Part shown: positions 10,678 through 31,442 of the stretch, one piece after another | Position numbering within the stretch: position 1 is the first letter of the stretch | Layout: every line of letters begins with the position of its first letter | The notes under the pieces: generated by a model | Told to the model about the DNA's origin: nothing | The model's database searches: none | What the model saw: only the letters and a program-made list of their open reading frames with translations | Virus record (IMG/VR): IMGVR_UViG_3300010970_000136 | Coordinates: 1 to 64,000 of that record | Reading direction: 5' to 3' (one strand) | Source of the DNA: a virus | DNA length: 64,000 bases | Program-made: the position numbers and the translations under genes

Positions 10678-10713
10678 AATGTAGTTTAATTAATAATGTT
10701 TGGTTTATTTTAG

Positions 10714-10787
10714 TTGCGTGGGAAGGACTCGAACCTCCGACCTCTAGGTTATGAGCCTAGCAAGCTAACCAACTGCTCTACCACACG
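10714..10787 (-). tRNA. tRNA-Met (CAT), initiator-like
   Basis: A 74-base cloverleaf on the minus strand. Acceptor CGTGTGG faces CCACGCA with a C1 x A72 mismatch. D stem GAGC/GCTT gives an A11-U24 pair. Anticodon stem CTAGG/CCTAG has loop CTCATAA (anticodon CAT). T arm GGAGG-TTCGAGT-CCTTC. Discriminator A, no encoded CCA. C1 x A72 and A11-U24 are hallmarks of bacterial initiator tRNA. Only two of the usual three G-C pairs close the anticodon loop (the third is A29-U41). It is co-oriented with the late genes. Confidence 0.9.
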
Positions 10788-26391: not shown

Positions 26392-27411
26392 ATGAACAAC
26401 GAAGCACAAAGAACAATTGGAGAGAATTTTGTATTTATGAACAAAACCTTGTCTATCCTTAACATAGGACATACAACAGGTAAAAACATCGTTTTATATG
26501 GTCCAGGGGGTCATGGTAAATCAGAAATTACATTAGAATACTTCGCAGAGAAAGGAATCAGTCCTTATGTAATCACAATGGGTACAGGTATGACAACAGA
26601 CAGATTGTTTGGTGGTCTTAACATACCAACATTTGAAGCATCAGGTAAGATTGAGTATCTTGTAGAGAATTCATTCATGAATCATGAGTATGTAATCTTC
26701 GAAGAGATGTTTGATGCACCAGATTTTATCTTAGAGCAATTGAAAGATATCTTATCATCAGGTGTGTTCAGAAACGGTACACAAATCTATCCTATCAAAA
26801 CTAAGTTTATTGTATGTTGTACTAACAGAACTCGTGAAGAATTCTCTAAGAACATGTCATTGAAAGCATTAATGGAGCGTTTTCCATTAGAATTGAATGT
26901 TGTATGGGACAATTATAACGAGATTGCTTACAACAAGCTGTTAGAAACTAAGTTTGGTGAAGGAAACATTGATCCAATCATTCCATTCTTGTTACAAGAG
27001 TATGCTAAGAATGGTATTATCATTTCACCTCGTGTTGCTGTAATAGCATATCAAGTGTTTGATCAACATGGTCCTGAATCATTGACATTCATTGCTGAGT
27101 TTGCTAAGAAACCAGAGCTTATTGCTGATGCTATCAAGAAATATGAATCTACATTGAAATTCAGAGAGATGTCAGGTGAGATTTCTGAACTTATTGACAG
27201 ATTAGAATCTAACACTATGTCATCTAATGATGATAATAAAGCTTTTGCATCAGATGTTGATACATTGAAACAGAAGTTAGATGCTATCAAGAGACTTACA
27301 GTGAATGATGATATTGCACACATGCTTGCATCATTGAGTAAAGCTGTTGGTGAGAAGATCAAAGCGTTTGAGAAAAAGCAATCAGTTGCTAAAATCATGG
27401 TAGAACTATAA
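26392..27411 (+). CDS. MoxR-type AAA+ ATPase
   Basis: A 339-residue protein. Walker A GPGGHGKSEIT near residue 35, Walker B VIFEEMFDAPD near 100, sensor 1 CCTNRTREEF near 140, arginine-bearing FPLELNVVWDNY near 165, and a helical lid ending about 270, then a coiled tail. This is the MoxR/RavA-like arrangement. The partner VWA gene follows after 3 bases, as in chaperone-like MoxR-VWA systems that insert metals or remodel complexes. In a phage the target is unknown. Codon use is slightly richer in G/C than the small neighbours, suggesting good expression. Confidence 0.85.
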   Translation: MNNEAQRTIGENFVFMNKTLSILNIGHTTGKNIVLYGPGGHGKSEITLEYFAEKGISPYVITMGTGMTTDRLFGGLNIPTFEASGKIEYLVENSFMNHEYVIFEEMFDAPDFILEQLKDILSSGVFRNGTQIYPIKTKFIVCCTNRTREEFSKNMSLKALMERFPLELNVVWDNYNEIAYNKLLETKFGEGNIDPIIPFLLQEYAKNGIIISPRVAVIAYQVFDQHGPESLTFIAEFAKKPELIADAIKKYESTLKFREMSGEISELIDRLESNTMSSNDDNKAFASDVDTLKQKLDAIKRLTVNDDIAHMLASLSKAVGEKIKAFEKKQSVAKIMVEL

Positions 27412-27414
27412 TCT

Positions 27415-28803
27415 ATGGCTAGTATTTTTGACATTGATGAAACCTATGGAGAGACTTACTCTCCATATGGTTACACTACTTCATATGGACGTGGTAAAAC
27501 ACGTTACACACCAAGAAAAACATCTTGGAGTAGAAGTAGTTGGTCAAGTTATTCTTTCGCAACAGCATTTGAAGACAATGATAATGATTTGATGGTTAAA
27601 GACCCAGTGTCTTATATAACACCAACAAAGCAAGAAATCAAGAAGAAAACAAATCTGTGGAAAGAAGATGCTTTTACTACTATCAAAGAACTAGCACGTA
27701 TATGCTATTTCAAGATGATGGATGAAAAAGAATATCTACGTGAAGACTTATCTGATTGGGATAAACTAGACGATGAAACAAGAGGTCAGTATGCCCAAAA
27801 GAAAGAACTATACGATAGTGTATTTGATATCTATGTACCAGGATTTACACCATTAGAACAAGCTATTGCTATATTTCGTCAGTTAGAGAAGAAAACTGTT
27901 GATGAATATGGTAATCGTCAAGAGGAAGAAGGTGAAATGGACATGACTAAATCATTAGGATTTGATAGAGAGCTTTACAATGATCCAACGATCAATGAAC
28001 AACTTAACTACAATGAACTGAGTAAAGATAAGAAAATGGATATCATGAATAAGATATCAATCATTGGAGATCTTGGTACACAGTTTAAAGTGGAGAAAGA
28101 AGTTGATGAAAAGATTGTACCAAACTCTGATCAGTATTCTAAGATGATTATGCGTGACTATTCACAGTTTCACATGATTGATCTATATCAAAAGATGTTT
28201 CCTAACTTTAGAACTAAGTTCTTAACTAAAGACTTAACAGTTAATGTTCCTGTTGATAGAAAAGAACAAAAGCAAAAGATCATCATTATGTTAGACTTCT
28301 CAGGAAGTATGGATGAAGATGAGAAACAAATTTGGGTAAATGCTATTCTTATTGATAGATTTAGATATGTTATGAAAGGAGAAGCTGAAGTGTTCTTCAG
28401 TTACTTTATCCATGACAAGAAAGATCTTAAGTTTCAACACATCAAAGATAGAGAAGATGTAATCAAGTTTTGGCAAACATTCTCTAATGATCCAAATGGT
28501 GGTACAACAGCAATTGGTGAGTTAGTAGAATATGTAGCTAAGCAAGTAACTGAAGAAAAGAAGTTACATAACTTAGACATAGATCTATCTGAAGAAAGAC
28601 CAGAAATCTTAATTATCAATGATGGTCAAGATAGAGTGCATAGTGACAAGTTTCCTTATAAAGTGAATGCAATATCATTAATTGAATTCAGTGATCAACT
28701 TAAAGACCTATGTGTAGCCACAAATGGTAAGCAAGTGAAAGTTGAATATGGTGATGTTGTAACAGCTTATTCTAAACAAGGAGAACAAATCATCTCTAAA
28801 TAA
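27415..28803 (+). CDS. VWA-domain (CoxE-like) partner of the MoxR ATPase
   Basis: A 462-residue protein. Residues 1-45 are low complexity and rich in Tyr, Ser, Thr and Arg (SPYGYTTSYGRGKTRYTP; SWSRSSWSSYSF). A helical middle (50-275) follows. The VWA domain carries a complete MIDAS: MLDFSGSMDEDE near residue 293, GGTTAIGE near 363 and INDGQDR near 400. MoxR and VWA proteins act as a pair, the VWA protein recruiting the substrate. The Tyr/Ser/Arg-rich tail is unusual and resembles condensate-forming regions. Confidence 0.85.
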   Translation: MASIFDIDETYGETYSPYGYTTSYGRGKTRYTPRKTSWSRSSWSSYSFATAFEDNDNDLMVKDPVSYITPTKQEIKKKTNLWKEDAFTTIKELARICYFKMMDEKEYLREDLSDWDKLDDETRGQYAQKKELYDSVFDIYVPGFTPLEQAIAIFRQLEKKTVDEYGNRQEEEGEMDMTKSLGFDRELYNDPTINEQLNYNELSKDKKMDIMNKISIIGDLGTQFKVEKEVDEKIVPNSDQYSKMIMRDYSQFHMIDLYQKMFPNFRTKFLTKDLTVNVPVDRKEQKQKIIIMLDFSGSMDEDEKQIWVNAILIDRFRYVMKGEAEVFFSYFIHDKKDLKFQHIKDREDVIKFWQTFSNDPNGGTTAIGELVEYVAKQVTEEKKLHNLDIDLSEERPEILIINDGQDRVHSDKFPYKVNAISLIEFSDQLKDLCVATNGKQVKVEYGDVVTAYSKQGEQIISK

Positions 28804-30081: not shown

Positions 30082-30543
30082 CAAAAAATAGCTAAGCTGT
30101 GTAAAGCGTCAGAACTGATAATCTGTTAGAAGCTATAGCCTAAACATTGATGCTTTGTAAATTATGAATAAGACGCTACCTTGAAATACAGGATTAGAAA
30201 TGGATGTGTAGGGGTAATTCAGCGTGCGCTTTAAGTGACATATGGTCTTAATATTCCTCTAATAGTTTACATAAAGATACTATCAGTAATGGTAGATGTG
30301 TTGGAGCCTTGAGAAAGCTTAGTATTTTTTTACGACTTATATAATACCGCCACAACACAAATGAGTTCTCAGCAAGTAGTTAGTGAATCCATGCTTATTG
30401 ATGGTGCTAAGTGGTAATTCTTATTCCTACTAATTACGTGACCCTACTCTTATTATGACCTCTATTGCTATAAGTTAAGATGTAATAAGAAAGGGTGCTA
30501 GATTTAAAAAAGTAATTGATAAGTGTCCTCACATGAGGAAACT
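30082..30543 (+). other. non-coding stretch before the tmRNA
   Basis: A 462-base stretch with no supportable protein gene. Base composition is more balanced than the neighbouring coding DNA. Possible structures include a 7-bp stem AAGCGTC/GATGCTT (30104-30155, one G-U) around a CTGATAA-containing loop, and ATAGCT/AGCTAT. It could be an additional structured RNA or the leader and promoter of the RNA island. No known RNA family was recognised. Confidence 0.5.
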
Positions 30544-30866
30544 GGGGGTGACTGGTTTTGACAGGTTACCAGTAGTTAATACAATCAGCCAGAGAGATAA
30601 CTGTAAACTAAGGTGAATTTAATTAATTGGCAATCAAACAACTCGTGTAGTGGCTCTAGGAGCAAACGCACAAATCGAAGCTAACATGAACAAAGTATTC
30701 TCTCTATTGGGAGAAGAAGTTGCTGTAGCAGCCTAAATTGAATAAGGATTTCTCTGTTAGATTAAACAGAGTGGTGGATCGTTAAGCCTAGCTTGACCCT
30801 AAATAAGCTGTATAAATTGTATTAATAAAAGTAGTTTGGACGTGGGTTCGACTCCCACCACCTCCA
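30544..30866 (+). ncRNA. ssrA: tmRNA (transfer-messenger RNA)
   Basis: A 323-base RNA. The 5' end GGGGGTGACTGG...TTTGACAGG and the 3' end GGACGTGGGTTCGACTCCCACCACCTCCA-like half form the tRNA-like domain: a 7-bp acceptor (GGGGGTG with CACCTCC, one G-U) and T arm GTGGG-TTCGACT-CCCAC, discriminator A at 30866, no encoded CCA. The tag frame most likely resumes at GGA (30659), begins GANAQIEANM, ends GEEVAVAA, and stops at TAA 30734-30736: 25 codons. The downstream segment has pseudoknot-capable repeats. It should rescue stalled ribosomes and tag products for degradation. Confidence 0.93.
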
Positions 30867-30875
30867 CTGAATTCT

Positions 30876-30947
30876 GAATTTGCACATCATGTTCCTTACA
30901 AACCTTGTAATGTTGGCCGTTGTTATGCTTATACCACGTGCAAATTC
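30876..30947 (+). ncRNA. unassigned structured element after the tmRNA
   Basis: A perfect 10-bp closing stem (GAATTTGCAC with GTGCAAATTC) encloses 52 bases containing a TTACAA/TTGTAA hairpin, starting 9 bases after the tmRNA. Size (72 bases) is tRNA-like, but no T-arm consensus or anticodon arm is seen. Function unknown. Confidence 0.5.
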
Positions 30948-31016
30948 GTGTTATTTTAGAACTTAAATTGAGTGGTGAATAACAACATAGGTGACTGATA
31001 GGAAAGACTATCAAAT

Positions 31017-31127
31017 GATTGAGTGGCGGAATTGGTAGACGCTAAGAATAATAGTTCGTAACTCACATACAGCTCTGTAGAGAGTATTCTAGGTAACACC
31101 ATACAGGTTCGAATCCTGTCTCAATCA
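31017..31127 (+). tRNA. leucine-type tRNA with enlarged anticodon loop
   Basis: Acceptor GATTGAG pairs perfectly with CTCAATC. The D arm GCGGAATTGGTAGACGC is the leucine signature. A variable arm GGTAACACC and T arm ACAGG-TTCGAAT-CCTGT follow. Discriminator A, no encoded CCA. The length of 111 bases exceeds the usual 85: the stem AGAAT/ATTCT that should close the anticodon loop encloses about 36 bases instead of 7, including small hairpins (ACTC/GAGT and TACA/TGTA). No anticodon can be assigned with confidence. Confidence 0.75.
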
Positions 31128-31383
31128 CAGCAGTTGCTTGATGTCAAATATGTACAGCAACAGACATTGGAGAAATTTGGCTTCTCATGAATGTTAAGTC
31201 CTTTCCACACAGAGAAGGAGTTGAGTACTTACAGAAGGATGTATAGAGTTCCAATCTCAACATTGTGGTATTACATCCACATTAAACTTGTAATCTATGG
31301 TCTCTTTGGAAAGGGAACGCTTGTGAGTTGCAGTGAATATTAAACTCTCAAACTGTTTAGGGTAGCAATATGCTAAACTTTAT
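31128..31383 (+). other. non-coding tail of the RNA island
   Basis: A 256-base stretch with no protein gene. Several stems are possible: GTTGCT/AGCAAC near 31133, GAGAA/TTCTC near 31170, GTTGAG/CTCAAC near 31213-31254, GGATGT/ACATCC near 31240-31280, and TAGCA/TGCTA near 31365. These overlap, suggesting one or more folded RNAs rather than simple spacer. No known family was recognised. Confidence 0.45.
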
Positions 31384-31414
31384 AAAGCCTCTGTAACAAG
31401 AGGCTTTTTTATTT
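31384..31414 (+). terminator. Rho-independent terminator of the RNA island
   Basis: AAAGCCTC and GAGGCTTTTTT form a stem with loop TGTAACAA, followed by ATTTT. It closes the tmRNA/tRNA transcript. Confidence 0.9.
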
Positions 31415-31442
31415 TGTATTAATCCTTAATAACTATAAAAAC

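Follow-up and report, generated by a model that had tools for sequence, protein, structure and literature searches.

A phage-encoded tmRNA with a long tag and a conserved, predicted helical core

The tmRNA gene and its RNA anatomy

The window, the whole stretch of 64,000 nucleotides analyzed here, is contained in a 69,835-base IMG/VR virus record. It comes from a tailed phage, as shown by its genes for portal, large terminase, major head, DNA polymerase, and rIIA/rIIB. The tmRNA gene, the only one in the record, is part of an RNA island (30082-31430) with no open reading frame of at least 90 aa. A preliminary description made from the letters of this DNA had proposed an RNA island with its own terminator, and the hairpin and T-run found at its end agree with that proposal (Table 1). 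The same description had claimed a complete phage tmRNA gene; ARAGORN and the tmRNA covariance model, which it had named as checks, both matched. The Rfam RF00023 match (30544-30869) scored 87.2 bits (gathering score, 47 bits) with an E value of 1.9e-32 and covered all 374 model positions.

Table 1. Features of the tmRNA gene and the end of the RNA island (window positions)
Feature	Position	Strand	Basis or remark
tmRNA gene, one-piece ssrA type, with tRNA-like ends and mRNA-like domain	30544..30867	+	ARAGORN, RF00023
Acceptor stem, 5' strand GGGGGTG	30544..30550	+	G3 at 30546
H2 helix, 5' strand GTTAATACAAT-CAGC	30575..30589	+	
Conserved block at pseudoknot 1 position, CAGAGAGATAACTGTAAACTAAGGTGAA	30590..30617	+	
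Frame-setting motif TAATT before resume codon	30624..30628	+	U -5, A -4; host tmRNA alignment
Tag reading frame (most likely), resume codon GGC: GNQTTRVVALGANAQIEANMNKVFSLLGEEVAVAA	30629..30733	+	35 aa
Conserved tag core, NAQIEANMNKVFSLL, predicted helix	30665..30709	+	pN/pS, AlphaFold2
C-terminal end GEEVAVAA, degron-like	30710..30733	+	
Tag stop codon TAA	30734..30736	+	
Hairpin 3' of tag	30750..30771	+	z -2.79 vs shuffles
Second hairpin 3' of tag	30781..30797	+	
H2 helix, 3' strand GCTG-TATAA-ATTGTATTAAT	30807..30826	+	
T arm GTGGG-TTCGACT-CCCAC	30842..30858	+	
Acceptor stem, 3' strand CACCTCC	30859..30865	+	U70 at 30863; then discriminator A 30866
Intrinsic terminator hairpin (9 bp), then T-run	31384..31407	+	closes RNA island

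The tRNA-like halves had been described as pairing perfectly apart from one G-U, and the two acceptor strands are indeed fully paired, with the single G-U at pair 3-70. This pair is not a blemish: G3.U70 is the alanyl-tRNA synthetase identity pair, and it was kept in all 94 distinct full-length phage relatives. These relatives had been extracted on the condition of at least six of the seven acceptor pairs and an initial GG, with no requirement for G3.U70 itself. The rest of the acceptor stem occurred in 18 versions among these relatives, nearly all fully paired through compensated, covarying changes. The H2 helix, which stands in place of the anticodon arm, retained an unbroken run of at least six pairs in 81 of 83 relatives and showed numerous compensatory variants. 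With regard to the four pseudoknots of one-piece tmRNAs, the features observed were the conserved block at the pseudoknot 1 position (the PK1-like block), present in two length versions (37 and 112 IMG/VR stretches), and a pair of hairpins downstream of the tag, the first of which is likely part of a remaining pseudoknot. Judged from these sequence features, the RNA is almost certainly a functional tmRNA.

Bacteroidota chromosomal tmRNAs share with it the one-piece RF00023 form, the tRNA-like domain with G3.U70, the H2 helix, a GGC resume codon (there after TAAAC or TAACT), the lack of an encoded CCA, and an Ala-Ala end. The host RNA is about 366-400 nt long, whereas that of the window is 324 nt with a shorter structured part. 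The tags differ as well. In 18 of 18 Bacteroidota genomes, the host tag has 9 residues of the GENNYALAA type (GE..[YF]A[LM]AA), including two whose starts ARAGORN misplaces and which read GEGNYALAA and GERQFALAA; the window tag has 35 residues of another sequence with a predicted helical core. A weak second RF00023 match in the Flavobacterium chilense stretch (L356) was set aside, as ARAGORN sees no gene there.

Tag frame, relatives, and the conserved core

In E. coli, the frame of the tag depends on A86, which precedes the resume codon by four nucleotides in UAGUC-GCA, and the resume codon lies 12 nt past PK1 (PMC2481249). In the aligned host sequences, the resume codon GGC directly follows TAAAC, TAACT, and similar pentamers, while the phage RNAs have GGC, GGA, or GAC directly after TAAAT, TAATT, or TAAAC, 10-13 nt past the PK1-like block; TAATT-GGC in the window (30624-30631) fits the rule of U at -5 and A at -4. 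When the first resume motif past the PK1-like block was taken in any frame, the ANM core of the tag fell in that frame in all 107 sequences, at nine distances that were each a multiple of three. The resume-site alignment, the U-5/A-4 fit, and these in-frame cores together point to a tag that most likely starts at GGC 30629 and stops at TAA 30734, and a 35-residue tag with this start is, as read from the sequence, very probable. The preliminary description had placed the tag between GGA 30659 and TAA 30734 (about 25 codons); its stop stands, but its start lies 10 codons late and its length is too short accordingly. ARAGORN's start, GCA 30662, lies 11 codons late, and automatic tag calls can fall at least 11 codons short. 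A tag beginning there, after TAGGA, would have 24 residues; TAGGA likewise carries U at -5 and A at -4, the choice is ARAGORN's own, and the constraint on the N-terminal module (N-module) upstream is only weak. We nevertheless consider this start improbable, since the TAAAT/TAATT-G(G/A)(C/A) site is common to hosts and to phage tags without an N-module, TAGGA lies 44 nt past the PK1 block rather than the 10-13 nt of the upstream site, and the N-module insert invariably keeps the frame.

A terminase search combined with pattern scans gathered 114 distinct related phage sequences around the tag. In 110 of them the tag is complete, with a length of 24-49 residues; these tags comprise 100 distinct DNA sequences and 92 distinct peptides. 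Their layout comprises an optional N-module, a core Q[IV]xANMxxV[FH][SN][LI][LI], a linker of variable length, and the end. ANM was present in 91 of the 92 distinct peptides, and the last two residues were AA in 86, VA in five, and GV in one, the Callevirus tags ending in VAVGV. The small hydrophobic end, with AA so frequent, upholds the earlier proposal of a degron-like VAVAA end, and the related phages strengthen the claim of a phage-specific, unusually long tag. Carriers of the gene include cultured phages of Flavobacterium psychrophilum (the Fpv1/FpV4 group), in whose records it is not annotated, the Cellulophaga phages phi38:1 and Calle_1, and the crAss-like phi14:2; annotated phage genomes miss tmRNA genes like these.

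Among single loci, the tmRNA of Flavobacterium phage Fpv1 (L082, 3001-3413) is unannotated and missed by ARAGORN too, and its tag reads GNTNNSVVSLEDNAQVEANMNMAFSLIREDVAVAA. In phi38:1 (L084, 2083-2256, minus strand), the annotated hypothetical protein gp041 runs antisense across the unannotated tmRNA and is likely a spurious gene call. The ANM core is missing from two related loci, L118 and L135, although both retain the PK1-like block and the resume motif; the tag read from L118 has 49 residues and may contain a frameshift.

A tag profile gave one match each, at the tmRNA, in 12 tmRNA-bearing phage records. In 299 Flavobacteriaceae genomes this short profile, with phage records as its positive control, found nothing. 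In a six-frame reading of the loci (6.2 Mb), the core motif was confined to tmRNAs, and the tag peptide had no match in the PDB or PHROGs. An exact 3'-end pattern had no match in IMG/VR, and a PK1-block pattern had none in genome contigs, a weak negative as the pattern demanded a longer spacer than that of the window. Eight related phage records had neither a full tmRNA match nor a tag-profile match; because such relatives exist, the tmRNA is probably an accessory function, although their records may be fragments.

Within the core, Q15, A18, N19, M20, and V23 are near-invariant as residues, and their codons differ where the code allows (GTA, GTT, and GTG for Val and all four Ala codons at conserved positions). 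In a comparison of disjoint closest pairs with frame-shifted controls, the core had a pN/pS of 0.305 (91 synonymous and 107 non-synonymous changes; binomial p 1e-15, which ignores transition bias), compared with 1.04 when the frame was shifted by 1 and 1.61 when it was shifted by 2; these shifted frames are the better control. The same pairs gave 0.495 for the N-module and 0.544 for the C-module. In a stricter ungapped set, in which the last ten codons were represented by 6 pairs only, the N-module had 0.57 against 0.96 and 1.34 in the shifted frames, suggesting that it is probably translated too, under weaker constraint. An unweighted count of distinct codon changes per column disagreed with the closest-pairs test, with no excess of synonymous change; it was not relied on because it saturates, counting recurrent synonymous changes once and breaking ties towards non-synonymous ones. 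The codon comparisons leave little doubt that the core is under selection as a peptide. Conservation for RNA structure or DNA reasons, conceivable for a tag placed within a structured RNA, is very improbable given that synonymous change dominates in the true frame only and that several codons are used for invariant residues. AlphaFold2, run with 46 aligned tags, predicted a helix over tag residues 10-34, with a mean pLDDT of about 85 for residues 11-30. The hydrophobic moment of the core exceeded that of shuffles only mildly (mean z 0.81), and amphipathy is therefore suggested rather than proved.

Possible roles of the tag

Tags added by trans-translation are generally regarded as short degrons. 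The range of 8-20 residues that the preliminary description gave for most bacterial tags is narrower than the 8-35 aa of a review (PMC8012679), which puts the window tag at the top of that range and some of its family beyond it; the most frequent tag length is 10 aa (PMC11915505). Ten phage tmRNAs were listed in 2014 (PMC4131195), and a later survey found tmRNA in 402 of 18,146 phage genomes (PMC9004378). The tmRNAs of the mycobacteriophage Bxz1 group, Bacillus phage G, Streptomyces phages, and Melnitz are likewise phage-carried (PMC4131195, PMC9004378), but the Streptomyces phage tags are annotated with 13 aa (ANSNVASAYALAA) against 35 in the window. The Calle_1 tmRNA, annotated as such, belongs to the same family, with a PK1-like block and an ANM core, and differs in its tag of 30 aa ending in VAVGV rather than VAVAA. 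The Mesoplasma florum ssrA tag is bacterial and linked to ClpXP loss, and it is not known to resemble the ANM core. The literature searched, outside which lay most subscription papers and the tables of the tmRNA Website, contained no description of long tags sharing an internal conserved helix in a family of phages. Phage tmRNAs as such are known; long modular tags organized around such a helix seem to make this family a new variant.

Taken as a whole, we consider it probable that this is a working phage tmRNA whose long tag may combine a degron end with a partner-docking helix. The RNA would use the alanyl-tRNA synthetase, SmpB, and ribosomes of the host; neither SmpB nor ClpP was found in 12 phage records, and the host must therefore supply them. 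If charged with alanine and used during infection, the tmRNA would enter a stalled ribosome, which would resume at GGC 30629 and terminate at TAA 30734, so that the full added peptide would be the alanine carried by the tmRNA plus the 35 encoded residues. This tag would consist of a weakly constrained N-terminal spacer, the helix Q-I-x-A-N-M-x-x-V-F-S-L-L, and an ssrA-degron Ala-Ala end. The end may still direct products to a host ClpXP-type protease, while the helix may dock to a second partner, such as a host or phage adaptor, an unfoldase, or another protein, through which the phage could control the fate of rescued products.

The preliminary description had suggested that a phage-specific tag could steer rescued products towards or away from particular proteases. 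The conserved Ala-Ala end favors the ordinary ssrA degradation route, and on balance the C-terminal end may be expected to act as a degron. The helix conserved inside the tag points to an additional partner. Tags of 24-49 residues with a central helix under peptide-level selection, in more than 100 phage sequences, imply that something recognizes the helix, and a docking motif is the simplest reading because the conserved helix exceeds the needs of a host-type degron; we propose a partner-binding motif tentatively, at slightly less than even confidence. With somewhat greater reserve, we suggest that a large group of Bacteroidota phages could use tmRNA as a delivery device that fuses the phage-specific helix to every rescued protein, to be read by a dedicated partner.

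The phage gene might instead be a supplementary tmRNA only, adding trans-translation capacity when infection yields many non-stop mRNAs, with a tag that is a normal degron, whose extra length aids protease engagement and whose helix has no specific partner. The intact tmRNA, the conserved Ala-Ala end, and the free length variation in the N-module and linker are consistent with this role, and the maintenance of hijacked machinery has been proposed in a study of marine phages (PMC9004378); length alone, however, leaves the near-invariant Q, A, N, M, V, and Leu/Ile under peptide-level selection unexplained, and we regard such a role as rather unlikely. Integration into tmRNA genes and a phage form with only the tRNA-like domain that inhibits tmRNA (PMC4131195, PMC11590407) give precedents for a fragment left by integration at a host gene or a decoy that titrates host SmpB without tagging, but the full length, the open tag frame under selection in more than 100 relatives, and a tag unlike that of the host make this highly improbable.

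If the docking helix is real, the tag would be a functional module rather than a degradation mark alone, and its partner would be either a trans-translation adaptor of a new kind or a host target with which the phage interferes. The cultured carriers (Fpv1/FpV4 type, phi38:1, and Calle_1) make the question of why phages encode tmRNAs testable through the partner of the tag.

Other elements in the window

A gene for a MoxR-type AAA ATPase, followed by a VWA (CoxE-like) gene, lies upstream of the tmRNA (26392-28803, plus strand); near the tmRNA and on the same strand, the MoxR-type gene occurred in 29 loci and the VWA gene in 48. The pair was considered as a source of tag partners and set aside: it is syntenic in many relatives, but it is apparently not required, because it was not found in the Fpv1, Callevirus, and phi14:2 stretches.

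Between these genes and the tmRNA, the non-coding stretches 30083-30160 and 30266-30380 (plus strand) contain blocks 85-100% conserved in relatives and gave no Rfam match. Downstream, a Leu-type tRNA-like element without an ARAGORN call (31017-31127, plus strand) has a fully paired acceptor stem (GATTGAG/CTCAATC), a Leu-type D arm, and a T arm, with about 60 nt of non-tRNA sequence in place of the anticodon arm. Related phage loci, the window included, have 15 distinct versions of 77-150 nt, in which the D and T arms are constant and the middle is hypervariable. The only ordinary tRNA call in the window, a tRNA-Met (CAT) at 10713-10787 on the minus strand, adjoins the major head protein gene.
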